Source: Sphingobium sp. Z007
GTDB lineage: Bacteria; Pseudomonadota; Alphaproteobacteria; Sphingomonadales; Sphingomonadaceae
Direction: 5' to 3'
DNA length: 64,000 bases
NCBI RefSeq assembly: GCF_900013425.1
Contig: NZ_FBXK01000005.1
Coordinates: 1,364,001 to 1,428,000 of the forward strand
The position numbers and the translations under genes were made by a program. This document shows positions 9,560 through 49,608 of the stretch, piece after piece. Positions within the stretch are counted from its first letter, which is position 1. Each line of letters opens with the position of its first letter. A model generated the notes under the pieces. It saw only the letters and a list, made by a program, of their open reading frames with translations, did not search any database and was not told the DNA's origin.

Positions 9560-9569
9560 GAGCCGATTC

Positions 9570-10361: not shown

Positions 10362-10443
10362 GGGAATGCTCCTTTGCGGGCAAATGTAGGCAGAAGGCAG
10401 GGGGCCGCCCAATGAGAATGTCTGATGGATGGACGCGCCGCGC

Positions 10444-13960: not shown

Positions 13961-14088
13961 GGATATTCCCCCAAACAGACTTGGAGGCCTGCCTATTTTC
14001 TATTGATTTGGTTGAGAAATGACTTTGGCGACATATCTATGATTAAAACTAAACTTTAGATCATCTTTCCGCTGACAAACTTATTGTT

Positions 14089-15048: not shown

Positions 15049-15051
15049 GGA

Positions 15052-16140: not shown

Positions 16141-16158
16141 GGAAATTCTCCCAAAATT

Positions 16159-17421
16159 TTAAATGACGTAGAAGCCGTGGGTGCCGTCGCGCTCCAATTG
16201 GGCGACGAGGCCATATTCCCAGTCGAGATAGGCCTGCATCGCGGCCGCCTTGTTGTCCGTGCCTTCATAGGGGCGCTTGTAGCGGCCCTCCGGCCCGCGT
16301 GGCGCAGGCGCGCCGTCCGGTCCGGTTTCCAGCGTGACAGCCGACCAGTCGACGTCGAGGATGGAAACGTCCCAACCAAGTTGGGCGAGCCAGGAGGCGG
16401 TCATGTCCGCGCGCGGACCAACATTGTCGGTCACGACAATGCGGGCACCGCGCACTGGAGCATTGTGGTCGGTTTCCTGCACCAGTTGCCCACCCTGCGC
16501 ATTGCGGAAGCCAGGCAGATGGCCGCTTTCATATTCGCGCGGCTGGCGCACATCGTAGAGATAGAGGGTGCGAGCCGTATCGGCCTGAAACGCGGCCAGT
16601 TCGTCCCAGCCGATGCGTTTCACGCCGGCGCGATAGGCGACGTCGCGGGCATGGGTGCGCGCTTCCTCGATCGCCACATCGTCGACTTCGGGCGCGGTGC
16701 GGGTCTGGCCGGTTTCGAGTTGTTGACCCGCCAGTGTCCAGCCGATCGTACCGTTGCGCAGCGCAAACACCTTGTTGGGGACGCCCGCATTGACCAGCGA
16801 TTGCGCGCCAATGATCGAACGAGTGCGGCCGGCACAATTGACGATGATGGTGATGTCGGGATCGGGCGCGATGGTGCGTGCCCGCAACGCCAGTTCCGCG
16901 CCGGGCACGCTGGTCCCGGTGGGGATGCTCATCGTGTTATATTCGTCGTAGCGGCGCGCATCCAAGATCTTGATGTCGGCTTTTTCATCGATCAGCGCCT
17001 GCACGTCTTCGGCGGCCAGTGACGGCGTATGGCGGCGATGCTCGACCAGTTCGCCGAACGCTTTGGAGTAGCTGTTGACGTCCTCGAACAGTTCATAGCC
17101 AGCCGCCGCCCAAGCAGAGAGACCGCCGTCCAGTTCGCGGACATTGGTATAGCCCAGCGCTTCGAGGCGGATCGCCGCTTTGCGGGCGAAGCCTTCCCCA
17201 TTGTCATAGACAATGACCGGCGTGGCGAGGCGCGGGATGCGCCAGCGGGCCTCCTCGTCGATGCGGCGCAGCGGGATTTGCGCGGCGAAGAGCGGGTGAC
17301 CCTGCGCAAAGTCATGTTCTTCGCGCACGTCGATGATGGCGATTTCGCTGCCGACCAGCAGGGCGTGGCGGATATCCTGCGGCGTGGCGGTCTGGATTTT
17401 GTCCAGCGTTTGCGTAGTCAT
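16159..17421 (-). CDS. Three-domain rhodanese-like sulfurtransferase
   Basis: A 420-residue protein with three tandem rhodanese domains at about residues 10-112, 132-236 and 268-350, then a C-terminal tail. Each domain shows the DxR strand (IIDVREEHDF, ILDARRYDEY, LYDVRQPREY). Only the middle domain keeps the active-site Cys (VNCAGRTRS, C196). Domains 1 and 3 have Asp at that position (VYDNGEG, D73; VTDNVGP, D332). Expected role: transfer of sulfane sulfur or detoxification of sulfide/sulfite products. The stop of the upstream cupin gene overlaps its ATG by 4 bases, so the two are coupled. Confidence 0.9.
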   Translation of the reverse strand: MTTQTLDKIQTATPQDIRHALLVGSEIAIIDVREEHDFAQGHPLFAAQIPLRRIDEEARWRIPRLATPVIVYDNGEGFARKAAIRLEALGYTNVRELDGGLSAWAAAGYELFEDVNSYSKAFGELVEHRRHTPSLAAEDVQALIDEKADIKILDARRYDEYNTMSIPTGTSVPGAELALRARTIAPDPDITIIVNCAGRTRSIIGAQSLVNAGVPNKVFALRNGTIGWTLAGQQLETGQTRTAPEVDDVAIEEARTHARDVAYRAGVKRIGWDELAAFQADTARTLYLYDVRQPREYESGHLPGFRNAQGGQLVQETDHNAPVRGARIVVTDNVGPRADMTASWLAQLGWDVSILDVDWSAVTLETGPDGAPAPRGPEGRYKRPYEGTDNKAAAMQAYLDWEYGLVAQLERDGTHGFYVI

Positions 17422-18044
17422 GCGGTTTTCGATCTGTCCCAGAGGTTGGGGATCACGCTGTTCGCGTAACCCGAAATGAAGGTCTTGGGCGTGCCGTCGA
17501 GGGCGTAGGTCGCGCGCTCGACCGCGCCGATATTGGCGCCATAGACATGGATGCTGACGGACGGCCGGTCGGCGAGCCCATTGGTGACGCGATGGATATC
17601 GCCAATGCGGGGGGAGACGGCATCCACCTCCCCTTCGTGCAGCAGTTCCTCGCCCTGATCGACCAGGGCGCCGCTTGGCAGGCGACGGAAGCGTTCGACC
17701 TTTTCGATCCCGCGCAGGACGCCGACCAGACCCCAGACGCTATGGTCGTGGATGGGGGTGGACTGGCCCGGTCCCCAGACGAAGCTGACGACGCTGAACC
17801 GCTCGCGGCTGTCGCAGTGGAGCAGATATTGCTGGTAGCGATCGGGATTGGGCCGGGCGAAGGCTTCGGGCAGCCAGTCGTCGGTGGCGATCAGGCGGCT
17901 GAGCAGTGCGCGACCGCTGTCCAATATCGCCTGCTCGTCGCGGGTCGCGGCCAGCAGGTCGGCAAAGGCGGTGACGAAGCCGCGCAGGCGGCTGGTGTTA
18001 GGCGCGGTTTCGACCGGGCGTTCGATGGCGGCGAGCGCGTTCAT
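17418..18044 (-). CDS. Cysteine dioxygenase-like cupin (thiol dioxygenase)
   Basis: A 208-residue cupin of the cysteine dioxygenase/3-mercaptopropionate dioxygenase family. The iron-binding three-His set is visible: 'STPIHDHSVWG' (H99, H101) and 'GDIHRVTNG' (H151), with 'SIHVYGANI' (Y168) near the C terminus. Such enzymes oxidise a thiol to a sulfinate with O2 and Fe(II). In this operon it would feed or complete thiol and sulfonate degradation. Its ATG overlaps the SsuB-like stop by 4 bases, and its own stop overlaps the rhodanese start. Which thiol it uses is not readable from sequence. Confidence 0.85.
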   Translation of the reverse strand: MNALAAIERPVETAPNTSRLRGFVTAFADLLAATRDEQAILDSGRALLSRLIATDDWLPEAFARPNPDRYQQYLLHCDSRERFSVVSFVWGPGQSTPIHDHSVWGLVGVLRGIEKVERFRRLPSGALVDQGEELLHEGEVDAVSPRIGDIHRVTNGLADRPSVSIHVYGANIGAVERATYALDGTPKTFISGYANSVIPNLWDRSKTA

Positions 18045-18823
18045 TCAGCGGCGACCGCGAGGGGAACGACGCCTTCGCCATGATCGTCGCCGCCCAGATG
18101 CGAGAGCAGTTTCTCGCGCAGGCGAGCCGCAAAGCTGCTGCGCTCGCCGCGCGGGGCGGTGATGCGTTCTTCGGCGACGATACGACCCCGGTCGAGCACC
18201 AGCACGCGATCGGCCAGCGCAATCGCTTCCTCAACATCATGGGTCACGATCAGGATAGCGGGCTTGTGCTTGCGCCAGAGCGACAGCACCAGATCGTGCA
18301 TCCGATAGCGGGTCAGGGCATCAAGCGCGGCGAAGGGTTCGTCCAGCAGCAGCAATTGCGGCTCGCGCACCAAAGCGCGGGCCAGCGCCACGCGTTGGGC
18401 TTCGCCGCCCGACAAGGTCAGCGGCCAGGCGTCGAGCCGGTGGCCAAGGCCCACTTCCTTGAGCGCAGCCTCGGCGCGGTCGCGGCCGTTGTCGCCCTTC
18501 AGGCCTAGCGCGACATTCTTCCAGACCGGCTTCCATGGCAGAAGGCGGGCATCCTGGAAGACGACGGCGCGGGAATTGGGGACTTCGACGTCCTGATCGC
18601 GCACTTCGTCCAGACCGGCGAGCGTGCGCAGCAAAGTGGTCTTGCCAGAGCCGGAGCGGCCCAGCAGGGCGATAAACTCGCCGGGCCCGATGTCGAGGTC
18701 AAGGCCGTTGATGATGGTGTTGGCGCCGAAGCGCCGGGTAAAGCCACGCAGGCGGACGACGGGTTCGGGATGGGGCTGGTGAACAGCGCTATCGACCGTG
18801 GAAAAACCGAGGCGAGCGTCCAT
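18041..18823 (-). CDS. ssuB: ABC transporter ATPase, sulfonate/nitrate type (SsuB-like)
   Basis: A 260-residue ATPase. Walker A (GRSGSGKTT, about residues 55-63), signature LSGGEAQRVALARAL, Walker B LLLLDEPFAALDALTR and the switch His (VTHDVEEA) are all intact. The family is SsuB/TauB/NrtD. The ATG at 18823 is chosen because the upstream extension to 19099 is only the out-of-frame shadow of the permease gene. It follows the permease with 2 bases between and overlaps the cupin gene by 4 bases. It probably powers uptake for all three binding proteins in the region. Confidence 0.93.
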   Translation of the reverse strand: MDARLGFSTVDSAVHQPHPEPVVRLRGFTRRFGANTIINGLDLDIGPGEFIALLGRSGSGKTTLLRTLAGLDEVRDQDVEVPNSRAVVFQDARLLPWKPVWKNVALGLKGDNGRDRAEAALKEVGLGHRLDAWPLTLSGGEAQRVALARALVREPQLLLLDEPFAALDALTRYRMHDLVLSLWRKHKPAILIVTHDVEEAIALADRVLVLDRGRIVAEERITAPRGERSSFAARLREKLLSHLGGDDHGEGVVPLAVAAE

Positions 18824-18825
18824 GC

Positions 18826-19659
18826 TTATTGCTCCACTATGCTGGGGCGCCAGATGAGGGCGCGGGCTTCGATCGTGCGGACCAGCCAGTCGGCGCCAAG
18901 GCCGAGGATGGCGTAAACCATTAGGCAGACGACGATGATGTCGGTCCGCATGAAATCGCGAGCGTTGTTGATGAGATAGCCAAGGCCGGCCGATGCGTTG
19001 ATCTGTTCGGCGACGACCAGCACCAGAATCGACACCGATAGGGCGTAGCGCAGCCCGACCAGCAGCGAGGGCAAGGCAGAGGGCAATATGACGTGCCATA
19101 TCTGTTCCCAGCGGCTGAGACCGAAGCTCTTTGCCGCATCGAGCAAGCGCAGATCAACGCTGCGGATGCCGCTGTAGAGGTTGAGATAGACCGGGAAGAT
19201 GGTGCCGAAGGCGATCAGGGCGACCTTGGGCGTTTCGCCGATGCCGAACCAGACGATGAAAAGCGGGGTCAGCGCCAGCGCGGGGATGGTGCGCTTAATC
19301 TGCATGAGCGGATCGACCGCCAGTTCGCCCGACCGCGACAGGCCAGCGACGAGGCCGAGGCCCAGGCCCAGGCTCACGCCGATCAGCAGGCCGACGGCGA
19401 CGCGGGCGAAGGACACCAGCAGATTGGAGGGGAGTTCGCCGGAGATCACCATCTCCAGCAACGTGCCCAGCACCGCCGATGGCGCAGCGAGCGTGCGTTC
19501 GGGGATAAGGCCGAGACGCGATCCCGCTTCCCAAAGCAGGAGCAGCAGTACCGGGGAAAGCCAGCGGCCGCCGAAGCGCGAAAGAGAGAATGGGCGTGGC
19601 GCCAACGCCGAACGGCCTTGCGCTACCTGTGATGTATCGTTGATCGTCAAAACCGCCAT
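18826..19659 (-). CDS. ssuC: ABC transporter permease, sulfonate type (SsuC-like)
   Basis: A 277-residue inner-membrane permease of the SsuC/TauC/NrtB family. About six hydrophobic segments run from 'LSPVLLLLLWEAGSRLGL' to 'IIVVCLMVYAILGLGADWLV'. The EAA-type cytoplasmic loop is 'RLLDAAKSFGLSRWEQIWHVILPSALP'. It starts the long minus-strand sulfur unit. The ATG at 19659 follows an AAAGGG stretch; an earlier in-frame ATG at 19710 would add 17 unlikely residues. The region upstream, shared with the divergent LysR gene, contains a T-N11-A inverted repeat. Confidence 0.93.
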   Translation of the reverse strand: MAVLTINDTSQVAQGRSALAPRPFSLSRFGGRWLSPVLLLLLWEAGSRLGLIPERTLAAPSAVLGTLLEMVISGELPSNLLVSFARVAVGLLIGVSLGLGLGLVAGLSRSGELAVDPLMQIKRTIPALALTPLFIVWFGIGETPKVALIAFGTIFPVYLNLYSGIRSVDLRLLDAAKSFGLSRWEQIWHVILPSALPSLLVGLRYALSVSILVLVVAEQINASAGLGYLINNARDFMRTDIIVVCLMVYAILGLGADWLVRTIEARALIWRPSIVEQ

Positions 19660-19732
19660 GTCCGGCCCTTTATGTAACTGCGGACAAGCCCAACATGTAT
19701 TGTCTACCAATTCAATTAAGTTTTTCTAGGCG

Positions 19733-19757
19733 GACCTATCAGCGTTCATCATAGGTC
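19733..19757. promoter_or_regulatory. Probable LysR operator, T-N11-A inverted repeat
   Basis: GACCTAT and ATAGGTC form a perfect 7-bp inverted repeat separated by 11 bases, matching the classical T-N11-A LysR-binding pattern exactly. It lies in the 291-base divergent region (19660-19950), 74 bases before the ssuC-like ATG and 194 bases before the LysR start. This is a suitable place to control the sulfur operon and to autoregulate. Confidence 0.6.
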
Positions 19758-19950
19758 GCCTTTCGTCGTCATGGAGGGACGGATCAGCGCCGATATCGGG
19801 GGGTTGCCGTGCGGCCTTTCATTCCAGCGTAGTTTTTTCTTGGCCGGACAAATCTCTACTATTTTGATTGATATATTGGCATCGGCGATAAGCGGCTTTC
19901 CGTTTCCGACTTCGGATCGGCTTCCCATCTTTCCATCCAAGGGGCTCATC

Positions 19951-20787
19951 GTGCCGGTCAATCTGCCGACCAATTTGCTGCGCAGCTTCGTCGCCATCGT
20001 CGATACAGGGTCGATGCTCAATGCGTCGGAGCAGGTGTTCGTGACGCAATCCGCGCTCAGCCTTCAGATCAAACGGCTGGAGGAACTGGTGCAGCAGACG
20101 CTGTTCCTGCGCGAAGGGCGGCGGCTGATCCTGACGTCAGCGGGGACCGTGCTGCTTGACTATGCGCGGCGTGTGCTGCTGCTGCATGACGAGGCGGTGG
20201 CGGCGGTCAGTGCGGGGCGCTTTGCCGGGCCGGCGCGGATCGGCATGGTGCAGGATTTCGCGGACACGTTGCTGACGGGCCTGTTGTCACGCTTTTCCGA
20301 ATTGCATCCCGACGCGCAAATCTATGCGCGCGTGGCGGGCACGGCGGAATTGCAGGCGTTGCTGGAGCGGCGGGAACTGGACATCGTGCTGGGCTTTGCA
20401 GCGCCCAATGACGCCCATGCGGTGACGGTCGCGCCGATGAGCTGGTATGGCGAGGCGACGCTGGCCGATCGTGCGGTCATCCCGCTGGCGGTGCTGGAGG
20501 AGCCGTGCCGTTTCCGCGAGGCAGCGATCCGGGCGCTGGAGGATGCCGGGCTGCAATGGCGGATCACGGTGGAAACGCCCAATCTCGCGACGCTCAAGGC
20601 GGCTGTCGGTGCCGGGCTGGGCATCACCTGCCGCACCCATTTGTTTCTGGAGAACAGCGCGGCGCTGGAGCATGAGCGGCTGCCGCAACTGCCGCGCGTG
20701 GCGGCGATCCTGCGGTCGGGCGACAAATTGGACAAGGCGGCGCAGAGATTGGCGGAACTGGCGCGGGAAACGGTCGAAGCACTCTGA
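19951..20787 (+). CDS. LysR-family regulator of the sulfur operon
   Basis: A 278-residue LysR-type transcription factor. The winged HTH is at residues 4-62 ('LRSFVAIVDTGSMLNASEQVFVTQSALSLQIKRLEEL'), followed by the co-inducer domain ('GPARIGMVQDFADTLLTGLLSRFSELHPD'). The start is taken as GTG 19951 with AAGGGG upstream, because HTH homology begins at once (PVNLPTNLLRSF). The 60 residues possible upstream (from 19771) look non-coding. It is divergent from the SsuC-like gene, the usual layout for a LysR regulator and its target. The effector may be a sulfur metabolite, by analogy to CysB/Cbl, but the protein is not clearly either of them. Confidence 0.9.
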   Translation: MPVNLPTNLLRSFVAIVDTGSMLNASEQVFVTQSALSLQIKRLEELVQQTLFLREGRRLILTSAGTVLLDYARRVLLLHDEAVAAVSAGRFAGPARIGMVQDFADTLLTGLLSRFSELHPDAQIYARVAGTAELQALLERRELDIVLGFAAPNDAHAVTVAPMSWYGEATLADRAVIPLAVLEEPCRFREAAIRALEDAGLQWRITVETPNLATLKAAVGAGLGITCRTHLFLENSAALEHERLPQLPRVAAILRSGDKLDKAAQRLAELARETVEAL

Positions 20788-20805
20788 ACGGCTCCCGCCC
20801 TGGCT

Positions 20806-21753
20806 TCAATAGCCGCGCACTGGATCAACGATATCGCTGGGCGCTTCGCCGCGGGCGAAACGAGAAATGTCGTCCCGCACTTTTTCCAGCAGCCTGTGAC
20901 GCACCAGGGTGTGATTGCTGGAGACATGCGGGGTCAGCCGCACGCGCCGGTGCGTGTAGAGCGGATGGCCGTCCGGCAAAGGTTCTGGATCGGTGACGTC
21001 CAGCGTCGCAAAGCCGGGGCCGCCCTCCCCGTCCAGGGCATCGATCAAGGCGTCCTGGTCGATCACCGATCCGCGGGCGACATTGATGATATGCGCGCCG
21101 GGCTTCACCTTGGCGAGCAGCGCCGCATTGAACAAATGATGGGTTTGCGGCGTAGCCGGTACGGCGACGATGATGTGGTCGGCACGGGCGACGAGCGTTT
21201 CAATATCGCCGACATGCTCCACGCCGCTGATGCCCGATTGCGCGCCGGTGCGACGCAAACCGACGACCTGCGCTCCCAGCGCCAGGCCGCGTCGCGCCAC
21301 CGCCTGACCGATCGCGCCCAGACCGACGATGCCGATCGTGGTGCCCGATACCCGGCCAAGCGGCACATTGATCCATTCCGCCCGCGACCGTGCGGTGATC
21401 GCCTCCAGGTTCTTGGCATGGGCGTAAATGGCGGCAATGACATAGTCGGCAATCTCATCCGACGCGACTCCCCGGCCGCAGGTCACGAGCGGCGCGTCGA
21501 GCAGCCAAGGGGGATAGAAATCGATCCCCGCCGACGCGCTATAGACCCATTTCAGACGTCCCGGCCAGGCGAACGGGCGGGTGGCAGATGGCTGGCGCCA
21601 GGCGGGCGAGGGCCGCACCAGCAGCACGTCAGCTTCAGCGGCGGCGCTCCATGGTGCTTCGTCGGCGACATCGATCAGGATGGGCGCGATCGGGTGCTGG
21701 CCAAGGCCACGATTGAATTCTGCATCGAGTTGGCTTGCGATAATCAATGACAT
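20806..21753 (-). CDS. D-2-hydroxyacid dehydrogenase family protein
   Basis: A 315-residue NAD(P)-dependent dehydrogenase. The nucleotide site 'TIGIVGLGAIGQAVARRGLALG' and the catalytic Arg region 'INVARGSVIDQDALIDAL' are present. The catalytic Glu/His pair is probably in 'LDVTDPEPLPDGHPLY' and 'RLTPHVSSN', the usual positions. It is the last gene of the minus-strand unit with the third binding protein and the DszC-like enzyme, 1 base after the latter. The ATG at 21753 is set by homology (MSLIIASQLD). It may oxidise or reduce a 2-hydroxy acid released from an organosulfur compound. It converges on the LysR gene with 18 bases between. Confidence 0.87.
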   Translation of the reverse strand: MSLIIASQLDAEFNRGLGQHPIAPILIDVADEAPWSAAAEADVLLVRPSPAWRQPSATRPFAWPGRLKWVYSASAGIDFYPPWLLDAPLVTCGRGVASDEIADYVIAAIYAHAKNLEAITARSRAEWINVPLGRVSGTTIGIVGLGAIGQAVARRGLALGAQVVGLRRTGAQSGISGVEHVGDIETLVARADHIIVAVPATPQTHHLFNAALLAKVKPGAHIINVARGSVIDQDALIDALDGEGGPGFATLDVTDPEPLPDGHPLYTHRRVRLTPHVSSNHTLVRHRLLEKVRDDISRFARGEAPSDIVDPVRGY

Positions 21754-21754
21754 G

Positions 21755-22939
21755 TCAGTTCCCAAGCGCCGCCCGGCCGGCTGCGACCAATATGGTGTCG
21801 GTTTGTGGCGAATGGATGCGGCTGCACAGGACGTCGCGATAATGGCGTTCAAGCGGGTTCTGCCGGCTGATGCCAGGATTTCCAGTGAGTTCCAGACCGA
21901 TCTCCACCGCACGGATGGCATTGGCGGTCGCGAGATATTTGATATTGTTCACCTCCACCGCGCTGGGCGGATCACCCGCATCATAACGCACGGCCGCGTC
22001 GCGGATCAGAGTGCGGTTGACCTGCAACAGCGTTTCGATCTTGCCGAATTTTTCCTGCACGCGCGGCAGGGTGGCGAGTGCGGCGCCGAGATTGGTGGGC
22101 ACCCGGTCGTTGAGATAGGCGCGCAACCAGTCCCGCGCCGCCCGCGCGACGCCGTCATAGATGGTCGAGATTGCAAGCGCGTTCCAGATCGCCAGGCTGG
22201 GATCGCCCGCACCAGCCGCCCATTGCTCAGGAAGACGGATGTCAACGGCGTGGTCGAGAGGCGTGGGGGTATCAGCGAAATGCACAGCGTGGCTGACCGT
22301 GGCGCGCATCCCCAAATGGTCCCACACCGGCTCTATATCGATGCCGGGACTGTCGGACCGCACCAGGAAATTGCCCACGCGCGGCTCTACCTCATCCGTT
22401 TTCGCCCAGACCGAGAACCAGTCTAGCCCCGTCGATCCGGTCGAATAGATTTTGGTGCCGGTGATCGCCCAGCCATTGGCGGTTCGCCGCGCGACGGTTG
22501 CGGGCAGACCGCCGCGCACCGGCGTGCCCAGTTCCGGCTCCACGCGCAGCCCACCGATCAATCCCCTGCCCGCCACCGCATCGCGTGCCAGCCGCTCGTA
22601 GATGGCCTGCGGCCAGTTGCGGGCGCGCGCGGGGGTGGCGTGATAATGATAGGTCATGAACAGGATGAGCGCGGTCGACGGCTCCCCCTTCGCAACGGCC
22701 GCCAGCACCCGGATCGCCTCCCCAAGCCCGGCACCGCGACCACCCAGTTCGCGCGGCACGGTCAGGCCGATAAGTCCCTCACTCGCAAGCAGGTCGAAAT
22801 TGGCGCGTGGGAACTCGCCGCTGCGGTCGTAGTGTTCGGCGGTTTCGGCCAGTCGCCGGGTCAGTTGGTCGAGTTGGTCGGCGCTGATGGGGGCGATGGG
22901 CGCGGGCGCGTCGTCGCGTTGAATTGCCTGGGTTGCCAT
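21755..22939 (-). CDS. Acyl-CoA-dehydrogenase-fold flavin monooxygenase (DszC/SfnB-like)
   Basis: A 394-residue protein with the acyl-CoA dehydrogenase fold: an N-terminal helical domain ('LIGLTVPRELGGRGAGLGEAIRVLAAVAKGEPSTALIL'), a beta domain ('WAITGTKIYSTGSTGLDWFSVWAK') and a C-terminal helical domain ending 'RHYRDVLCSRIHSPQTDTILVAAGRAALG'. The 'RDVLCSRIHSPQTD' ending and organosulfur neighbours favour the DszC/SfnB monooxygenase-like branch over true fatty-acid oxidation. No CoA-pathway gene is nearby. It lies 5 bases downstream of a sulfonate-type binding protein. It probably uses reduced flavin and O2 on an S-containing substrate, by inference. Confidence 0.83.
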   Translation of the reverse strand: MATQAIQRDDAPAPIAPISADQLDQLTRRLAETAEHYDRSGEFPRANFDLLASEGLIGLTVPRELGGRGAGLGEAIRVLAAVAKGEPSTALILFMTYHYHATPARARNWPQAIYERLARDAVAGRGLIGGLRVEPELGTPVRGGLPATVARRTANGWAITGTKIYSTGSTGLDWFSVWAKTDEVEPRVGNFLVRSDSPGIDIEPVWDHLGMRATVSHAVHFADTPTPLDHAVDIRLPEQWAAGAGDPSLAIWNALAISTIYDGVARAARDWLRAYLNDRVPTNLGAALATLPRVQEKFGKIETLLQVNRTLIRDAAVRYDAGDPPSAVEVNNIKYLATANAIRAVEIGLELTGNPGISRQNPLERHYRDVLCSRIHSPQTDTILVAAGRAALGN

Positions 22940-22944
22940 GCGTC

Positions 22945-23934
22945 TCAGCCTCTCTTGGGAATGGCGGTATTGAAGCGCGCGTCCCAGAGCGGGCGCACGT
23001 CGACCGCTTTGGGCAGCAGTTTTTGGCGGAAGAACAGGTCCGCGACCTGTTGTTGGGACGCGATCGCCGCGTCCGTGACCGGGCGCAGTTCATAGGTCGC
23101 GCTTTTGCGCTTGAACTGATCGACCACATAATCGCGCGGGACGCCGATATCCTGGGCGATGATCGTCGCCCATTCATCCTGATGCGCGGCCGCCCAGCCA
23201 TAGGCTTTCTGAACCAGCGCCAGATAATCGCCGATCAGCCTGGCCTTGTCGGGATCGGCCAGTGCGTCGATATGCGCCGCCACCAGATAATTGCCCGACA
23301 ATATGCCATAGGCCGTCTTGAGGATGCGCGCGCCTTCGGTCGCGATGGCGCGCTGGATCGGGAAGCCGTAGATCGCCCATGCGTCGAGCGACCCCTGCGA
23401 AAAGGCGGCGGCGCCGTCGGATACGCCCATCGCTACCGGAGTGATGTCGCCCCAGGTCAAGCCGACCTCCTCCAGCATGCGGATCAGGAAATATTGCGAG
23501 GTTGTGGCGCGGACATAGCCGACGCGCTTGCCCTTAAGATCAGCGATCGACTTGGCCTTCGAGCCCTTGGGCACCAGCACGACCTGGTTGTTGACGTCGC
23601 CATGGGCGACCGCGATCTGGCGGAAGCTCTGGATGGTGGAGGCCGCCGCGAAGATTGGCGGGATCTCGCTCATGCCGCCATAGTCGAGCGAGCCGCCGTT
23701 GAGCGCCTCCACAACCAAATGGCCGGACTGGAACTCACTATAGGTCAGGTCGAAGCCTTCGGGCTTGATTCCCGCCGCCTTGAACAGCAAACGGCTGTCG
23801 CCTTCGCCTTTTCCGGTGACGGACACGCGCAGCCTGGGCCGGCCAGCCTGACCTTCGCTGCATCCCGCCACGATCAGGCAGGACGCCGCGCCAGCGCCGA
23901 TGAAGGCGCGCCGCGACAGTCGATCAGCGACCAT
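22945..23934 (-). CDS. ABC substrate-binding lipoprotein, sulfonate type (third)
   Basis: A 329-residue SsuA/TauA-like binding protein. The twin-arginine signal SRRAFIGAGAASCLIVAGC ends in a lipobox at C25. The core shows 'SEFQSGHLVVEALNGGSLDYGGMSEIPPIFAA', 'VPKGSKAKSIADLKGKRVGYVRATTSQYFLIRMLEEVGL' and 'AFSQGSLDAWAIYGFPIQRA'. It is the main gene of the second sulfur unit, with no permease or ATPase beside it. The nearest are the SsuB/SsuC pair 3-5 kb away, on the same strand but in another transcript. Confidence 0.9.
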   Translation of the reverse strand: MVADRLSRRAFIGAGAASCLIVAGCSEGQAGRPRLRVSVTGKGEGDSRLLFKAAGIKPEGFDLTYSEFQSGHLVVEALNGGSLDYGGMSEIPPIFAAASTIQSFRQIAVAHGDVNNQVVLVPKGSKAKSIADLKGKRVGYVRATTSQYFLIRMLEEVGLTWGDITPVAMGVSDGAAAFSQGSLDAWAIYGFPIQRAIATEGARILKTAYGILSGNYLVAAHIDALADPDKARLIGDYLALVQKAYGWAAAHQDEWATIIAQDIGVPRDYVVDQFKRKSATYELRPVTDAAIASQQQVADLFFRQKLLPKAVDVRPLWDARFNTAIPKRG

Positions 23935-37366: not shown

Positions 37367-38272
37367 GTGACCGATCTCGCCATTCTGTACGAACATCCGC
37401 TGTGGTTCGTCCCGCTGTTCGCGGCCCTTGACCGCAGAGGGATCGCCTACAGCACGATCGGCACGCAGGGCAATTTCGATCCCGCTGCGGCAACGGCGCC
37501 CGCCCCGCTCATTCTCAACCGCGTGGCGATGTCTGCCTTCCTGCGGGATGCGGAACATCCTATCTTCTGGTCTCTCGCGCTGCTCGACCATTGGCAGCAG
37601 GCGGGCGCGAAAGTCATCAACGGCCCACTGGCGCTCGCCATCGACACGTCGAAGGCGCGGCAGCTCTCGCTGCTCAGTTCGCTCGGCCTAGCGGTGCCGC
37701 GCACGCGGGTTGTTCATCGCGCCGTTGACCTGATCGATGCCGCCGATTCCATCGGCTTCCCGCTGCTTGTAAAGGCCAATATCGGCGGCGCAGGCGCAGG
37801 CATCGCGCGTTTCGACGATCGCGAAGCGCTGCGCGCCGCACTGGCCGATCTTGACCTGCCACGCAGCATCGATGGCGTGCTGCTGGTGCAGGACGTGATC
37901 CCCGCGCGGGGCGACCGTATCACCCGCATCGAAACCCTCGATCGCGACTATCTCTATGCCATCGACGTGTCCGGCGCAGGGGCGTTCGATCTCTGTCCGG
38001 CCGACGCATGTCAGGTCGGAGGAACACCGATCCAGATGGTGGCGGCCGAACCGGACAAGACATTGCGCGATGCGGCCAAAGCCATCGCGCATGCCGCGCA
38101 TCTGGACCTGGGCGGGGTTGAGATGATGATCGACGATCGCGACGGCATACCCCGTTTCTACGACATCAACGCATTGTCCAACTTCGTCGCCAACCCGTTG
38201 GACGTGCTGGGCTGGGACCCGCATGACAGGCTGGTCGATCGGCTGGTTGGCTGGATCGCGGAAACCCGATGA
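37367..38272 (+). CDS. ATP-grasp ligase (RimK-like)
   Basis: A 301-residue ATP-grasp protein. N-terminal domain 'LAILYEHPLWFVPLFAALDRRGIAY'; ATP-binding part 'FPLLVKANIGGAGAGIARFDDREAL'; and C-terminal 'LGGVEMMIDDRDGIPRFYDINALSNF', which carries the Mg-binding Glu, Asp and Asn. The fold couples ATP hydrolysis to formation of an amide or peptide bond (RimK, glutamate or small-peptide ligases). It starts at GTG 37367, and its stop overlaps the LLM monooxygenase start (ATGATG). The 236-base gap upstream has no evident gene and should hold the operon promoter. The substrate is unknown. Confidence 0.87.
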   Translation: MTDLAILYEHPLWFVPLFAALDRRGIAYSTIGTQGNFDPAAATAPAPLILNRVAMSAFLRDAEHPIFWSLALLDHWQQAGAKVINGPLALAIDTSKARQLSLLSSLGLAVPRTRVVHRAVDLIDAADSIGFPLLVKANIGGAGAGIARFDDREALRAALADLDLPRSIDGVLLVQDVIPARGDRITRIETLDRDYLYAIDVSGAGAFDLCPADACQVGGTPIQMVAAEPDKTLRDAAKAIAHAAHLDLGGVEMMIDDRDGIPRFYDINALSNFVANPLDVLGWDPHDRLVDRLVGWIAETR

Positions 38273-39288
38273 TGCGCTATGGTTACTGGATGCCCGTGTT
38301 CGGCGGCTGGCTGCGCAACGTCCCGGACGAGGGCATGGACGCAAGCTGGGACTATGCCAAGCGCCTGACCCTGGACGCGGAACGCTGGGGCTATGACTTG
38401 ACGCTGATCGCGGAACTCAACCTCAACGACATAAAGGGAATAGAGCAGCCTGCGCTGGACGCCTGGTCGACCGCGGCGGCGCTCGCCGCGGTGACGGATC
38501 GGGTGGAGATGATGGTCGCGGTGCGCCCGAACTTCCATCACCCGGCCCTGTTCGCCAAGGCGGCCGCCAACATCGACCGCATATCCGGCGGCCGGCTTTC
38601 CCTCAATGTCGTCTCCTCCTGGTGGGCGGACGAGGCGCGACAATATGGGCTGCAATTCGACGAGCATGACGATCGCTATGCGCGCACCGCCGAATGGCTG
38701 ACCGTGGTCGATGGTCTTTGGACGCAGACGCGGTTCAGCTTCGACGGCGCCTATTATCGCACGGATAACGCGATCTGCGCGCCCAAGCCGACCAAGCGCC
38801 CGACCATTTATGCCGGTGGCGAAAGTGACAAGGCCAAGGCAATGATCGCACGTCAGTGCGACGCCTATGTGATGCATGGCGATCCGGTCGATGCCATCGC
38901 CCCCAAAATCGCCGATATGGCCGAGCGACGACAGGCGGCAGGCGGCGCGCCGATGCAATTCGGCATGGCGGCCTACGCCATCGTGCGCGATAGCGAGGCG
39001 GAAGCGAAACGCGAACTGGAAAGGATCACGACGGTCGGCGAGTTACCGGCTGGCTATGCCAATTTCGACCAGTGGCTGTCGGGCACACAGTTGGAGCGGG
39101 ACCTGAAATTACAGGAATATGCCGTGTCCAACCGCGGCCTGCGCCCTAATCTGGTCGGCACGCCCGAACAATTGAAGGAACGGATTGCGGCATATGAGGA
39201 TGCGGGCCTCAATCTGCTGCTGCTCCAGATGAGCCCACAGGCGGAAGAGATGGAACGCTTCGCTAATCAGGTTATGGGCACGGCATGA
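38269..39288 (+). CDS. LLM-class flavin monooxygenase (SsuD-type branch)
   Basis: A 339-residue luciferase-superfamily enzyme: '[51 protein letters not shown]', '[46 protein letters not shown]' and '[27 protein letters not shown]'. The 'RPNFHHP ... NIDRISGGR' block is that of alkanesulfonate-type monooxygenases. It overlaps the ATP-grasp gene by 4 bases and the MetN-like gene by 4 bases, so it works with the importer, most likely removing sulfur from (or oxidising) the compound taken in. Confidence 0.9.
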
Positions 39289-40013
39289 TCGAACTGCGTA
39301 GCATATCCAAACGCTTCCCCGACGGAACAGTAGGGCTCGACAACATAGACCTGTCGATCCCCAAAGGCTCGGTTTTCGGTATCATCGGCCGGTCGGGTGC
39401 GGGCAAATCCACGCTGCTGCGCCTTATCAACGGCCTGGAGCGACCGACGTCCGGCGAGGTGATTGTCGACGACGTGTCGCTCTCCACGCTCTCGCGTCCC
39501 GGTCTGCGCGCCCTGCAACGGCGGATCGGGATGATCTTCCAATCCTTCGGCCTGTTGGCCAACCGCACCATCGCGGGCAATGTCGCGCTGCCGCTGGAAC
39601 TGGCGGGCGTGGGCAAGGCGGAGCGCGCCGCGCGCGTCGCCGAACTGCTCGCACGGGTAGGCATCAGCGACAAGGCGGACGTTTATCCTTCGCGGCTGTC
39701 GGGTGGCCAGCGCCAGCGCGTCGGCATCGCGCGTGCGCTCGCCACGCGGCCCGACATACTGCTGTGTGACGAGGCGACAAGCGCGCTCGACCCGGAAACC
39801 ACGCGATCGGTGCTCGCGCTGCTGGCCGATCTCAACCGGGAAATGGGGCTGACGATCGTCCTTATCACCCATGAAATGGCGGTTGTGCGCGCGATCTGCG
39901 ATCGTGTCGCGGTGCTGGATCAGGGCAGGCTGGTGGAAGTCGGGCCGGTGGACAGCGTCTTTGCCGGGTCGCGTGAACAGGCGACCCTTGCCCTGCTAGG
40001 GGAGGTTGGGTGA
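39285..40013 (+). CDS. metN: ABC transporter ATPase, methionine type, lacking NIL domain
   Basis: A 242-residue ATPase with Walker [10 protein letters not shown], signature [15 protein letters not shown], Walker [17 protein letters not shown] and '[22 protein letters not shown]', all as in MetN. Canonical MetN (about 340 residues) has a C-terminal NIL domain that senses methionine. Here the protein ends right after the nucleotide-binding domain, so such feedback control would be absent. It overlaps the LLM gene upstream and the permease downstream by 4 bases each. The symbol reflects family, not proven substrate. Confidence 0.9.
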
Positions 40014-40678
40014 TGGACGGCTTTTTTCAGAACGTCTCGTGGCCCGACATCGGCCAGGCGACGATCGATACGCTGGTAATGCTGGGCGGATCGCTGGCGC
40101 TTAGTATCGCGCTGGGCATCCCTCTTGGCATATTGCTGTTCCTGACCGACCGCGGTCAAATTGGCCAGAATGTCGTCCTCAACCGAACGCTCGGCGTCAT
40201 CGTCAATGTCCTTCGCTCCATCCCGTTCGTCATCCTGCTGATCGTCATGATCCCGCTGACATTGCGCCTGATGGGGACGTCGCTTGGCGTGGCGGGCGCG
40301 ATACCGCCGCTGGTTGGTGGCGCCGCGCCCTTCTACGCCCGCCTGGTGCAAGGCGCGCTGCGCGACATCCCCCGCGCCACGATCGAGGCGGCGCAGGCGA
40401 TGGGCGCGACCCGGCTACAGATCATACGTCACGTCCTTCTGCCCGAAGCGCTGCCCGGCCTCATATCCGGCGCGACCGTGACGGCGATAGCGCTCGTCTC
40501 CTTTACCGCCATGGCCGGGGTCGTGGGTGGCGGTGGCCTTGGTGATCTTGCCATCCGCTTTGGCTATCAACGCTTTCAGGCCGACGTCATGCTGGTGACG
40601 GTCGTGCTACTCGTCCTGCTTGTCCAGTGCATCCAATGGTCCGGCGACTGGTTCGCGCGCCGGGTCGATCATCGTTGA
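40010..40678 (+). CDS. metI: ABC transporter permease, methionine type
   Basis: A 222-residue inner-membrane protein of the MetI family. About five hydrophobic segments are visible, with the EAA loop '[67 protein letters not shown]', strongly like MetI. The start may be GTG 40010 or the adjacent ATG 40013; both overlap or abut the metN-like stop. It pairs with the ATPase before it and the lipoprotein after it. Confidence 0.92.
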
Positions 40679-40689
40679 GGAAGTCCTTT

Positions 40690-41496
40690 ATGAAGCGCCG
40701 TTCGCTCATCATCCTGCTCCCGGCCCTGCTGCTCGCCGCCTGTGGCGGAGGCAAAAATGACGGTGCGAAATCGGACCCCAACAGGCTGAGCGTCGCGGCG
40801 ACGGCCGTCCCCCACGCGGAAATATTGGAGCATGTCAAACCCGTGCTGGAGAAGCAGGGCCTGACGCTCGATATCCGGGTATTCAACGATTATGTGCAAC
40901 CCAATCTGCAAGTCGACCAGGGCCAGATTGACGTCAATTATTTCCAGACCGGCCCCTATCTGGCCGAATTCAATAAGGCGCAGAATACCGACCTGACGCC
41001 CATTGCCGGCATTCATATCGAGCCGCTGGGCGCCTATTCGCGCAAGTGGAAGAGCTTGGCGCAGCTGCCGGTTGGCGCGACGGTCGCCATCCCCAATGAA
41101 CCCAGCAACGGCGGTCGCGCACTGCTGCTGTTGCAGAAGGCTGGCCTGCTGAAGCTGAAAGATCCGGCCAACCCGCTGTCAACCGTTCGCGACGTGACCG
41201 ATAATCCCAAGAAGTTCGTTTTTCGGGAACTGGAATCCGCGACGCTGCCACGCACCCTGGGGGAGGTCGATCTGGCGCTGATCAATACCAATTACGCGCT
41301 CGACGCAAAACTCAACCCGGTGCGCGATGCGCTGGTGATCGAGGATGGCAAGTCGCCCTATGTCAATTTCGTCGTCGGCAAACCGCGCAGCGACAAGGAT
41401 CCGCGCGTGCAAAAACTGGTCGCGGCCCTCCGCAGCGAAGACGTTCGCCGTTTCATGGCGGATAAATATAAGGGCGCAGTTCTGCCTGCTTTTTGA
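40690..41496 (+). CDS. metQ: ABC substrate-binding lipoprotein, MetQ family
   Basis: A 268-residue lipoprotein of the NLPA/MetQ family. The signal peptide with lipobox (LLAAC, C18) is followed by a Gly/Asn linker. Core: 'VAATAVPHAEILEHVKPVLEKQGLTLDIRVFNDYVQPNLQVDQGQIDVNYFQTGPYLAEFN', 'VAIPNEPSNGGRALLLLQKAGLLKL' and 'DLALINTNYALDAKLNPVRDAL'. GAGGAAG precedes the ATG at 40690. It completes the MetNIQ-type importer at the end of the five-gene unit. Family members bind methionine or its derivatives, and a modified amino acid or dipeptide is possible here. Confidence 0.93.
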   Translation: MKRRSLIILLPALLLAACGGGKNDGAKSDPNRLSVAATAVPHAEILEHVKPVLEKQGLTLDIRVFNDYVQPNLQVDQGQIDVNYFQTGPYLAEFNKAQNTDLTPIAGIHIEPLGAYSRKWKSLAQLPVGATVAIPNEPSNGGRALLLLQKAGLLKLKDPANPLSTVRDVTDNPKKFVFRELESATLPRTLGEVDLALINTNYALDAKLNPVRDALVIEDGKSPYVNFVVGKPRSDKDPRVQKLVAALRSEDVRRFMADKYKGAVLPAF

Positions 41497-45033: not shown

Positions 45034-45110
45034 TGGTGGGCCCGGCAGGACTTGAACCCGCAACCTATCCGTTATGAGCGGACAGCTCTAACCAGTTGAG
45101 CTACAGGCCC
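45034..45110 (-). tRNA. tRNA with CAU anticodon, probably tRNA-Ile2 (lysidine type)
   Basis: A 77-base cloverleaf with encoded CCA. The acceptor stem GGGCCTG/CGGGCCC, D arm GCTC...GAGC, anticodon loop CTCATAA (anticodon CAT) and T loop TTCAAGT are complete. CAU is shared by Met and by Ile2. The acceptor pairs C4-G69 and C5-G68 are the positive determinants known for TilS lysidine modification, favouring Ile2 over elongator Met. Isotype is therefore likely but not certain. Confidence 0.93.
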
Positions 45111-45134
45111 CACCTGCGCTGCCGATAAGCGGCA

Positions 45135-45566
45135 TTACGCCGCTTTGCAAGCCTGTCCGCGCGGGGGAACTGCCGCAATAAGTTGATCGATGCTCGCGGC
45201 GGTGACGCCGCGCCGCGCCAAATGCGCCAGCACGCCGCCCCACCAACGGTAAAAGACCGCCAGGTCGGCTTCATCGCGGACATAGGGCGTATGTCCCGGC
45301 TCCAGTGTCGGCGAATGGAAGCTGAAATTCAGCACTCGCACGCCCTCTTCCATCAGCGCGTCGATCGCGGCTATGGCCTCCTGCAGCGGGACGCCTTCGG
45401 GCGTCAGCGGGATACGGCTGAACATCCTAGCGCGCGACAGGGCGCCCGCCAGCGGCCCGATCGCCTGGGCCGCGCGATACAAGCGTTCGCCGCCGCCACG
45501 CAACAGCCCCGCAAAGGCGGTGGAAAGCGGCAGTTCGATCAGTAAGCGGGTCGGCCCGGCCCAATA
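45135..45566 (-). pseudogene. 3' fragment of a polysaccharide deacetylase split by the transposon
   Basis: The minus-strand frame from the transposon edge reads 'YWAGPTRLLIELPLSTAFAGLLRGGGERLYRAAQ', then 'RIPLTPEGVPLQEAIAAIDALMEEGVRVLNFSFHSPTLEPGHTPYVRDEADLAVFYRWWGGVLAHL' and ends 'QACKAA'. This is the C-terminal part of a WalW-like polysaccharide deacetylase, with the late catalytic His region (FSFHSPTLEPGHTPYV). Its 5' half is at 49676-50286 on the same strand. The intact gene would give about 340 residues. Without a start or the metal-binding half, this piece is inactive. Confidence 0.85.
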
Positions 45567-45611
45567 GGCCCAGTCGGCCCCAAGCTGCGATTTTGGCCAA
45601 GTCGGAGAACG
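45567..45611 (+). repeat. Left terminal inverted repeat of the Tn3-family element
   Basis: Begins GGCCCAGTCGGCCC and runs inward to ...AGAACG. It matches the reverse complement of 49631-49675 except at 4 positions (15, 34, 37, 39 of the repeat). At 45 bases it is longer than the usual 38 for Tn3 elements, and its outer end is GGCCC rather than GGGG. Confidence 0.9.
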
Positions 45612-45689
45612 TTTTGGGAACGTGGCATTCGGTATTGACGATGGAAATCATAGAAGAGGACAGTTCGCTCCATCATAGGGAGTGGGTTG

Positions 45690-48599
45690 ATGGATCGGAG
45701 TATTCCGGGCGGGGATTTGATCGGACGATGGAGCCTGAGCTTTGCCGATATTGATTTTGTAAATTCGAAGCCGGCCCTGACGCGCCTTGGCCTCGCCGCG
45801 CAGCTGAAATTCTTCGCTTCCCTGGGGTTTTTCGCGATCGATCCCGGCTCAATCCCTACCGATGGCCTCTCGTATCTGGCCGAGCAACTCGGTGTCGAGG
45901 CTGGCGAGATAGCCGGTTATGACTTTTCCAGTCGGACAGCACGACGGCATTGTGCGGAGATCCTGATCCATCTTGGATATCACCGCATGAAGCGGGTGGA
46001 TCGCGCGCAATTGACGGAATGGATTGCTGGCGAGCTGTGCCCGGGCGGCCAGTCGATCAATGCCATGCTTGAGCATGTTTTCCTGTGGTGCCGGGACCGG
46101 CGTATTTATGGGCCGTCGCGCAAGGAGCTTGAACGTGTCGTTCGCTCACAACGGCAAGATTATCTGGACACCTGGCTGATCGGAGCCAGTGATCGGCTTT
46201 CGTCAGATGCGGTGGCGTTATTGGAAGCCTCGCTTGCCGATCCGGACAGCTCGACCGGATTCAACAGGATGAAGGGTGACGCCGGACAGGCAACGCTCGA
46301 CAACATTCTCGACGTGACCGAGAAACTCGCCTTTATCCAGAGACTTGATCTTCCCCATGATCTCCTGACGGCTACGGGCAAGCCATGGGTCGATCAGATT
46401 GTTCGCCGCGTTGCCGGTGAAAAGGCCTCGGAGATGCGCCGGCATGCGCCGGCGCGACAGCTCGGCCTTTATGCGATTTATCTAATGTCGCGGGAGGCGC
46501 AACTCACTGACGCGATGATCGACCTGCTGATCGAAACCGTTCACAAGATCGGAACGCGCTCGAAACGCAAGGTGGTGGGCGATATCGCGAAAGACATCGA
46601 GCGGGTCTATGGAAAGGAGCGCCTGCTGGTCGAGATCGCCAGCGCCTCGATCAATGAACCATCGGGGCGCATCTGCGATGTCATTTTCCCGATCGCCGGT
46701 AAGGCCAAGCTGGCGGCGATCGTCAAGGAGAGCCATGCGAAGGGCGCTCTGGACCGGCGCATCTACAAGGTGATGCGTGGTTCCTGGGCCAATCATTACC
46801 GGCGCATGCTGCCAAGCCTGCTTTCCGTACTTGAGTTCCGGTCGAACAACGCGGTGTGGCGGCCGGTCCTGGCGGCCCTCGACTGGATCAGGAGCAAGGT
46901 GGATGGCGGATGCCGCTTCGTGCCATTGCAGGATGTTCCGATCGATGAGGTGATTCCAGCGCGATGGCGCAGTTCCGTCATTGATGACGATGGGCGGGTA
47001 AACCGGATCAGCTATGAGCTTTGCGTCCTGACGCAACTGCGCGACCGCATCCGCTCCAAAGAAATCTGGGTGGTCGGGGCGGATCGCTATCGCAATCCCG
47101 ATGACGATCTTCCCAAGGACTTCGAGATCAGGCGAGATGCGTACTATTCCGGCCTCAGCCTGACGCCAGATGCGCAGGCGTTTTGCGCCTCGATCCGGGA
47201 GGAGCTTGAACGGGAACTGTTGCTCCTCAATGCCAATATTCCACAAAACGACAAGGTCCGGCTCCTGTGGCGCGGCGACAACCGGATATCGATTACACCG
47301 TTCAAGCCCTTGCCCGAACCGAAGGGTCTCGCTTCGATCAAAAGCGAGATCGGTCAGCGCTGGCCGATGACCGGACTGCTGGACGTGTTGAAAGAGGCTG
47401 CTCTGGACACGGGATTGATGGATGCTTTCGAAACGTCGGCCTCGCGGGTTACCCTGTCGAAAGCAGCCTTGGCTCAGCGTCTTTTGCTGTGTCTCTATGG
47501 CTTGGGCACGAACGCCGGGCTCAAGCGGGTCGCTGGCGCAACACCCGATGTCAGTTACGAGGAATTGCTGCATGTCCATCGCCGTTTCATCCACGCGCCA
47601 GCGCTGAGGGAGGCGTGCGCGCGGGTAGCAAACGCGACACTGGCAATCCGCAATGCCGCAGTATGGGGAGATGCGGGCACGGCATGCGCGTCCGATTCAA
47701 CGAAGTTCGGCGCGTGGGACCGCAACCTGATGACGGAATGGCACGCCCGCTATGGCGGCCGTGGCGTCATGATCTACTGGCATGTGGAGAAGCGCGCGAC
47801 CTGCGTTTATTCCCAGCTCAAGCGGTGCTCTTCCTCGGAGGTCGCCTCCATGATCGAAGGCGTGCTACGCCATTGCACCGACATGGAAATCCAGCGCCAG
47901 TACGTCGATAGCCACGGCCAGAGCGCAGTCGGCTTTGCGTTCTGCCGACTCCTTGGATTTGAGCTTGCCCCGCGGCTGAAAGCAGTGGCACGCCAGAAAC
48001 TGGCCCTTCCCCAAGCCGGCATGCGCACGCGGCTTTCCAATTTACTGCCGATCCTCTCCAGCCCGATCGACTGGGACGAGATCGAGCAACAATATGACGA
48101 AATGGTCAAATATGCCGCTGCCATGCAATCGCGCACCGCCGATCCGGAAGCGATCCTGCTCCGGTTTGCCAGAGCCGAAGTGATGCACCCGACCTACAAG
48201 GCGCTGAGTGAACTCGGCCGCGCGGTCAAAACAATCTTCCTATGCCGGTATTTGCGTCAGGAGGCATTCCGCCGCGAGATCCACGAAGGGCTGAATGTGG
48301 TTGAGAACTGGAACGGCGCTAATGGTTTCGTGTTCTTCGGCAAGGGCGGCGAGATCGCCACCAACCGCATCCATGAGCAGGAAATCTCCGTTCTGGCGCT
48401 ACACCTCCTGCAAGCGTCGCTGGTGTATGTGAACACCCGCATGCTTCAGACCGTACTGGTTGAGCCGAAGTGGGCGGGGCGGATGACGCCGGAAGATTAT
48501 CGTGGTCTCACGCCGTTGATCTACAGTCATGTGAACCCTTATGGCCGCTTCGACCTCGACCTGAACGACCGGATTGATTTTGGACGGCTTGCAGCGTGA
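45690..48599 (+). CDS. tnpA: Tn3-family transposase TnpA
   Basis: A 969-residue DDE transposase. The start is ATG 45690 with GGGAG six bases upstream; TTG 45687 is an alternative. The N-terminal DUF4158-type DNA-binding region binds the inverted repeats. The C-terminal catalytic half has D669 (ASDSTKFG), D740 (QYVDSHGQS) and E872 ([21 protein letters not shown]), the triad of Tn3 transposases. Full length with no stop or frameshift, so it appears functional. It performs replicative transposition through a cointegrate that the neighbouring resolvase would resolve. Confidence 0.97.
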
Positions 48600-48651
48600 G
48601 GCGGCTGATCGGCCTATAACATTTGGGTACACCCCAGAGTGATAGGGCCGA

Positions 48652-48730
48652 GTGACACCATTCGTCTGTCACAAAAGGGTGGGTTTGCGCTCAATGTGAC
48701 GATACACTGCAAGAGCCACCCTAATGTGAC
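48652..48730. other. Probable res (resolution) region
   Basis: Between tnpA and tnpR. The motif GTGAC/GTCAC recurs four times: GTGACA (48652-48657) facing TGTCAC (48667-48672) as an inverted pair, and TGTGAC at 48695-48700 and 48725-48730. Spacing and position fit resolvase subsites, with the last one touching the tnpR start, where resolvase would also repress its own gene. Confidence 0.55.
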
Positions 48731-48735
48731 GGATT

Positions 48736-49608
48736 TTGCACTTGGCTCGTATCGGATATGCCCGCGTCAGCACCACGGACCAGGATCTGGATATCCAGAT
48801 TGGCCGCCTCAAGAATGCAGGTTGCGAAATTATCCGTTCCGAGACCGGATCGGGGGCCTCGCGGAGCGGGCGCACGGAACTGGAAACGATCATGCAGTTT
48901 ATGCACACCGGCGACGAGCTGGTCGTGCTGCGGCTCGACCGGCTCGGCCGCTCCACGCGCGATGTCCTGAACCTGGTGCATGAGCTTGATGAAAAGGGAG
49001 CTTCGCTGCGCATCCTTGAGCCAGAGGTGACGACGGCGGGCGACATGGGGCGAATGGTCATCACCATACTCGGCATGGTCGCCGATATGGAGCTGAAGTT
49101 CATCAAGGATCGTCAGCGCGCCGGGATCGAAGCGGCGCGCGCCGAAGGCGTTTACAAAGGCCGGAAGAAGAACGTCGATGACGATGAAATCCGCCGTCGC
49201 CTTGCCGCCGGCGCCAGCAAGGCCCGCGTTGCCCGCGACCTGAAGGTCTCACGAATGACCGTCTATCGGGCGCTCGACATTATTCCGTCACAGACCAAAC
49301 TGCCGGAAAAGCCGCCCACTGCCAGCATCGCCCTGCATCTGATTATCGAGAACTTCAACAAGCGTGGAAGAGGTAGAAAACCCGCTCGGGAGCGGATTGA
49401 GGCGATGCTGGAACGCGACTACGCCATGGTAAAAAACGGCAATTGTGATTACAAACTGACCGTCGCCTATGACCCCGATCCGGATGGCATTTCCCTTGAT
49501 GAGGAAATCCAAAGCCTCCTCTCCGAGATGTTCAACATCGCAGAGAGCTACAATTGCTCCATGGAAGCCGATATCTACGAGGTCGGTGGTCAGCAACGGT
49601 CCTGGTAG
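48736..49608 (+). CDS. tnpR: Serine resolvase TnpR with long C-terminal extension
   Basis: A 290-residue serine recombinase. The catalytic domain at residues 4-140 has the nucleophile S12 (YARVSTTDQD), 'RLDRLGRSTRDVLNLVHELDEKGASLRIL' and 'MVADMELKFIKDRQRAGIEAARAEGVYKGRKK', followed by a Hin-type HTH (about residues 148-183, ASKARVARDLKVSRMTVYRAL). Standard Tn3 resolvases end there at about 185 residues. This one continues for about 105 more with no recognised domain, resembling the extended resolvases described for ISXc5 and Tn163. The start is TTG 48736 or TTG 48742. Confidence 0.93.
   Translation: MHLARIGYARVSTTDQDLDIQIGRLKNAGCEIIRSETGSGASRSGRTELETIMQFMHTGDELVVLRLDRLGRSTRDVLNLVHELDEKGASLRILEPEVTTAGDMGRMVITILGMVADMELKFIKDRQRAGIEAARAEGVYKGRKKNVDDDEIRRRLAAGASKARVARDLKVSRMTVYRALDIIPSQTKLPEKPPTASIALHLIIENFNKRGRGRKPARERIEAMLERDYAMVKNGNCDYKLTVAYDPDPDGISLDEEIQSLLSEMFNIAESYNCSMEADIYEVGGQQRSW

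Follow-up and report, generated by a model that had tools for sequence, protein, structure and literature searches.

A conserved pair of ATP-grasp ligase and flavin monooxygenase genes with exchangeable amino-acid-type importers in sphingomonads

Five genes at the locus

We analysed a 64,000-nucleotide stretch of Sphingobium sp. Z007 DNA (contig NZ_FBXK01000005.1; hereafter, the window), in which positions 37367–41496 carry genes for an ATP-grasp ligase, a luciferase-like monooxygenase (LLM) and a MetNIQ-type ATP-binding cassette (ABC) importer. An earlier note on this DNA had taken them as one five-gene system. As that note stated, the open reading frame coordinates show 4-base overlaps joining the first four genes, with metQ beginning 11 bases after metI. 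The genes are:

37367..38272, + strand: ATP-grasp ligase, RimK/LysX-like, 301 residues, core gene 1 (Pfam RimK-type match)
38269..39288, + strand: LLM-class monooxygenase dependent on flavin mononucleotide (FMN), 339 residues, core gene 2 (Bac_luciferase, 203 bits)
39285..40013, + strand: MetN-like ABC ATPase, 242 residues (Pfam ABC_tran)
40010..40678, + strand: MetI permease (BPD_transp_1; NF008049 at 215.9 bits, above its cut-off of 212)
40690..41496, + strand: MetQ substrate-binding lipoprotein, FQT replacing FQH (PF03180, NlpA lipoprotein, 308 bits, read from 40627)

The ATG at 40690 was used as the metQ start for the gap and the protein comparisons; an upstream GTG at 40627 is also listed. 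The MetN-like protein scored 314.8 bits against the MetN equivalog model TIGR02314 (positions 1–234 of 343), below the cut-off of 499.7, and Pfam detected no NIL domain in it at E <= 1e-3. The window's MetQ is the only PF03180 protein in the Sphingobium sp. Z007 genome. An Rfam scan of the window at gathering scores returned one tRNA and no riboswitch, and words drawn from 71 upstream regions gave no convincing shared DNA motif.

The ligase and LLM genes are a conserved, co-occurring unit

Of 249 genomes of the family, that of Z007 included, 26 have the ligase and 22 the LLM (both at E <= 1e-40). All 22 LLM-bearing genomes also carry the ligase, and coordinates place the two genes side by side; in one of them (G398) only a 144-residue piece of the LLM is present. 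The four genomes with ligase and no LLM all belong to a single genus (g173). The complete order ligase–LLM–MetN–MetI–MetQ was found again in other sphingomonads. Because the two genes are adjacent in every LLM-bearing genome of the family and the order recurs, the arrangement reflects more than chance, and the pair is almost certainly a functional unit.

A second sample came from a ligase-alignment scan of public genomes, of which the best 80 of 560 confirmed loci, mostly from sphingomonads, were kept. Adding the window, five loci found via MetQ and, from the family survey, 18 found via the ligase gave 104 loci; removal of seven duplicates left 97 (the window, 92 gathered by ligase and 4 by MetQ). 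Gene calls in the scripted analysis of these loci were heuristic. The LLM gene adjoins the ligase gene in 90 of the 97, in 89 of them within 60 bases of the match ends; in the remaining one, L038, the LLM match is in two parts. The pair in L038 is followed by another RimK-type ATP-grasp gene with a stronger match (149.5 bits; L038:10981-12345).

The pair is rare and patchy. Of 61 genomes from the window's genus, only that of Z007 itself carries the ligase, and a survey of 299 genomes of the phylum found ligase and LLM in the same two genomes, one of them again Z007. This distribution fits transfer or repeated loss. Four loci titled Arthrobacter, Wenzhouxiangella or Actinobacteria (L008, L044, L063 and L084) hold ligase genes 64–74% identical to the window's, through mislabelling, misbinning or transfer.

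A 267-residue gene comes next after the LLM gene in L069, L074 and L077, and its L069 copy matches diaminopimelate epimerase. An argininosuccinate lyase gene lies upstream in L029 and an argininosuccinate synthase gene upstream in L044; both were taken as housekeeping neighbours.

The two enzymes, their relatives and their importers

The match of the ligase to the RimK-type ATP-grasp domain PF08443 is weak (25.8 bits, Pfam cut-off 21), and it scored 54.1 bits against the RimK family alpha-L-glutamate ligase model TIGR00768, below the cut-off of 143.4. The leading structural matches of its AlphaFold2 model are ATP-grasp enzymes, the closest being ArgX/LysX. Residues E252, D266 and N268, which we take, by analogy with ATP-grasp enzymes, to bind metal, are kept in all 97 loci; the fold of the model and these conserved acidic residues and Asn place the protein among ATP-grasp enzymes. 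LysX and ArgX are RimK-like ATP-grasp enzymes that mask the alpha-amino group of an amino acid. The window ligase shares their fold most closely of all, but is only 15–18% identical to them and has other gene neighbours. Moreover, no lysW match (TIGR01206) was found in its genome at E <= 1, and a script scan of the window and 96 loci found no match to a C-terminal LysW-like motif. A LysW-type carrier was therefore rejected, and ligation to a carrier, one of the options in the earlier note, is not supported for that type. We also considered the cysteine pair of a CPA[DE]xC loop as a marker of the ligase–LLM pair; it is kept in the 90 LLM loci and also in the LLM-less loci L040, L044 and L063, and was rejected as a firm marker. 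Both CPAxxC cysteines are lost in L143–L146, which represent one genus with ligase and without LLM.

For the LLM, the best curated model is SfnG (TIGR04021), at 230.2 bits and below the cut-off of 382.95; SsuD (TIGR03565) scored 158.6 bits, below 518.2. SfnG also resembles the window LLM in lacking Arg at the position of MsuD R225, where it has Asn; the gap between 230 bits and a cut-off of 383 sets the two apart. The nearest solved structures are 3rao (414 bits), presumably from a Bacillus, and 8vw6 (373 bits), for which no paper naming the structure was found in the literature searched.

The earlier note had also proposed oxidative release of sulfite. In MsuD, W195, R225 and R296 are each required for sulfite formation (PMC8234197). 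W195 and R225 align to His and Ala in the window LLM, and the same His and Ala occupy these positions in 90 of 90 orthologues. R296, in the sulfonate-binding loop RGGA, aligns to Asn with an Arg adjacent, alignment confidence being low on that stretch; with the same uncertainty, this Asn is kept in 87 of the 90 orthologues and gapped in three. With two of the three residues replaced and the third unsure, an SsuD/MsuD-like sulfite-releasing site was rejected, and sulfite release by that route was not borne out. Since W195 and R225 are replaced in the window LLM and its orthologues, a plain sulfonate is unlikely to be its direct substrate.

Deinococcus deserti encodes an LLM with 58.6% identity to that of the window, placed after cuyA, cuyB and a 426-residue 'carboxylate--amine ligase' (CuyA, 535 bits with cut-off 450; CuyB, 271 with cut-off 190); this cuyA–cuyB–ATP-grasp ligase–LLM run lies on plasmid 3 (L088:3879-8026). 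Deinococcus peraridilitoris has a ligase and an LLM (57.3%) without cuyAB. Pfam matched nothing in the Deinococcus ligase at E <= 1e-5, and its similarity to the window-ligase profile is weak (hhalign probability 87, 12% identity), so that two distant ATP-grasp ligases partner orthologous LLMs. A relative of the Deinococcus ligase (35%) is paired with an NtaA/DmoA-class LLM in the haloarchaeon Natrononativus. In Spirosoma, a window-type ligase (about 45%) is followed by two amino-acid permeases and an LLM; as this LLM belongs to a different type, with 7olf as its closest structure, and retains the sulfonate residues, the locus supports the link less than first supposed.

Amino-acid-type importers, either MetNIQ or an SDF symporter, stand beside the pair on several separate branches. 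MetNIQ is found at 30 of the 97 loci (26 of 93 without those gathered through MetQ), lying upstream of the pair in L056, L061 and L078, and an SDF symporter gene lies at most 200 bases downstream in nine. Thus, of the five-gene system proposed earlier, the conserved neighbourhood stands; its unit is the ligase–LLM pair, with MetNIQ as one importer among several. On a quick tree of the 90 pairs, which has two long branches, MetNIQ changed nine times (at least seven on starred branches) and SDF six times (at least four), with L006, whose sequence breaks off within the importer but includes MetN, scored as MetNIQ and the other eight short loci (under 3 kb beyond the LLM) omitted. Without that correction the counts are 10 and 8 for MetNIQ and 6 and 4 for SDF. 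These repeated changes indicate that the importer is an exchangeable part.

In the family survey, MetNIQ exceeded the cut-off in 11 of 249 genomes. Six have the pair, with MetNIQ adjacent in all six; five have MetNIQ without the pair. None of these five has a close LLM, and one has a distant LLM at 34%. The neighbourhood search suggested by the earlier note thus recovered the gene order in other sphingomonads, and also recovered MetNIQ apart from the pair. MetNIQ is enriched in genomes with the pair (6 of 22 versus 5 of 227, p 8e-5, kinship not corrected).

The window's importer resembles the MetNIQ methionine importer in having all three subunits and in its alpha-group residues: E. coli MetQ R144, N202 and N229 are kept as R143, N199 and N226. 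It differs in lacking the NIL domain and in the thioether pocket, where E. coli H88 is replaced by T87. The corresponding residues of Neisseria MetQ bind the alpha groups and pack against the methionine thioether (PMC6739813). The His-to-Thr replacement is found in all 26 system MetQ proteins (that of the window and those of 25 loci) and in a control set of ten family MetQ proteins, five with and five without the pair, and was rejected as a mark of the pathway. In SDF transporters, an Arg binds the acidic side chain while an Asp and an Asn hold the backbone groups (PMC7682989). Among the nine SDF symporters beside the pair, four have Ala and four Tyr at the acid-binding Arg, and these eight keep the Asp and Asn. 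The most economical reading of these residues is that the imported substrate would be an alpha-amino acid with a non-acidic side chain.

A proposed salvage route and its rivals

We propose, with a probability of roughly 0.38, that the two enzymes form a module for salvaging an alpha-amino acid that contains sulfur or carries some other modification, served by an exchangeable importer. The balance tips slightly towards a substrate that contains sulfur. In this route MetNIQ would import the amino acid, and the ligase would use ATP to join the alpha-amino group of this substrate to a small carboxylate or another amino acid through an amide bond. The LLM, supplied with reduced FMN (FMNH2) by a separate reductase, would then oxygenate the carbon beside sulfur and break the C–S bond, and a peptidase or amidase encoded elsewhere would release the product. 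The general sequence put forward in the earlier note, in which a modified sulfur amino acid is imported, ligated and oxidised, is plausible; we further infer that masking comes before cutting and that a partner carboxylate, a flavin reductase and an enzyme for unmasking take part.

The route is modelled on two salvage pathways of Bacillus, yxe for S-(2-succino)cysteine and cmo for S-alkylcysteine, in which a modified cysteine is acetylated on its amine, its C–S bond is broken by a flavin monooxygenase and the product is unmasked (PMC9706529, PMC10863075). Amine masking and a C–S-breaking flavin monooxygenase are thus common to both known pathways and to the proposed one, and the yxe (scm) cluster likewise includes an ABC importer. 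Unlike in yxe and cmo, a ligase takes the place of the N-acetyltransferase, the LLM is of another subfamily and no deacetylase was recognised nearby: among 30 Pfam-scanned neighbours, some of them unnamed, neither an N-acetyltransferase nor a deacetylase was recognised beside the LLM.

Several observations weigh against this proposal. The LLM falls on the SfnG/SsuD side and not the NtaA/DmoA side, and sulfur in the substrate is read from this kinship and from one Deinococcus operon. At seven ligase loci (L040, L044, L063 and L143–L146) the LLM is missing, and a search of their genomes turned up no close LLM at any other site; the g173 genomes have one at 31–32%. As for import, 58 of the 97 loci, including the nine short ones, have neither MetNIQ nor SDF, and the MetNIQ share is inflated by the four MetQ-gathered loci and by near-identical Sphingomonas genomes. 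The His-to-Thr replacement, present in all 11 family-survey MetQ proteins, does not point to this pathway. In L036 the SDF symporter, 142 bases away, retains the Arg and is nearest to the DctA model, with a score under the cut-off. The NMDGT motif is missing from the Ala-type SDF protein used in the alignment, whose pocket may therefore differ in further ways. Among the 30 scanned neighbours no unmasking enzyme was seen, the peptidases there being an S15 peptidase (L071) and a signal peptidase (L058), each found once. Cytobacillus has an LLM relative (30%) close to MetNIQ, with no ATP-grasp gene among its listed neighbours. Likewise, none was among the listed neighbours of LLM relatives at 34–40% in Methylobacterium, Variovorax and Antarctobacter, the plasmid gene table being incomplete. 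The lack of listed ATP-grasp neighbours beside such distant relatives indicates that the ligase link belongs to the close LLM group and not to LLMs generally. The Cytobacillus locus (L095:1-6047) also holds two 4-hydroxyphenylacetate 3-hydroxylase-like genes.

Three other explanations were considered. The one that survives best, still unlikely in our judgement, is that the pair builds a small amide-containing metabolite, with MetNIQ either importing methionine in the ordinary way, as the source of a precursor, or standing there by chance. It would account for the five MetNIQ genomes without the pair, for the pair loci without an importer and for the resemblance of MetQ to structure 4k3f (308 bits). 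Set against it are the enrichment of MetNIQ with the pair, its adjacency in all six such genomes and the scarcity of export or carrier genes, since the 30 scanned neighbours held no exporter or carrier except a single HlyD-family protein (L053), an MFS protein (L081) and ion/phosphate transporters (L030, L034).

RimK-type ligases also form amino-acid conjugates, and the gene order is compatible with either sequence of action. The LLM could therefore act first on an imported amino acid such as a sulfone or sulfoxide, with the ligase conjugating the product for detoxification or into a dipeptide; the sulfone enzyme SfnG is, after all, the best curated model for the LLM. We consider this improbable, as the best fold match of the ligase masks a starting amino acid and the yxe and cmo monooxygenases act on a masked one (PMC9706529 and PMC10863075).

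Equally improbable is desulfonation of a cysteate-type amino acid to sulfite: the CuyA and CuyB of cysteate degradation in the D. deserti cluster, a TauE-family gene ahead of the ligase in L014, two SsuA-family genes 13–23 kb upstream in the window and the Arg adjacent to the R296 position speak for it, but W195 and R225 are replaced throughout, the R296 position has Asn or a gap (unsure alignment), the acid-binding Arg is missing in eight of nine SDF symporters and D. peraridilitoris carries the pair without cuyAB.

The earlier note had seen in the five genes a candidate for an undescribed system, and our literature search, outside which most subscription journals lay, returned no description of the ligase–LLM pair. 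If the mask-and-cut salvage route is correct, it would extend oxygenolytic sulfur scavenging by a branch that relies on a ligase, and suggest a function both for a large set of RimK-like ligases (at least 7874 of 8000 scored candidates at E <= 1e-10) and for the LLM subgroup of structures 3rao and 8vw6. It would also offer a two-gene system for testing why amine masking should precede C–S cleavage. More speculatively, and with the odds clearly against it, bacteria and archaea may share an ATP-driven route of this kind, assembled repeatedly from different ATP-grasp ligases and LLMs, with the importer swapped by host.

The window contains a second organosulfur cluster (8210–23934), 13–29 kb upstream of the ligase. 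It encodes two LLMs, one of NtaA/DmoA type (8210–9559) and one SsuD-like (15052–16140), together with two SsuA-family binding proteins over the cut-off, an ABC permease, a rhodanese and an acyl-CoA-dehydrogenase-like protein. On the other side of the five genes, at 45037–49608, a tRNA gene lies near an apparent Tn3-type transposase and a resolvase, judged by their first residues only.

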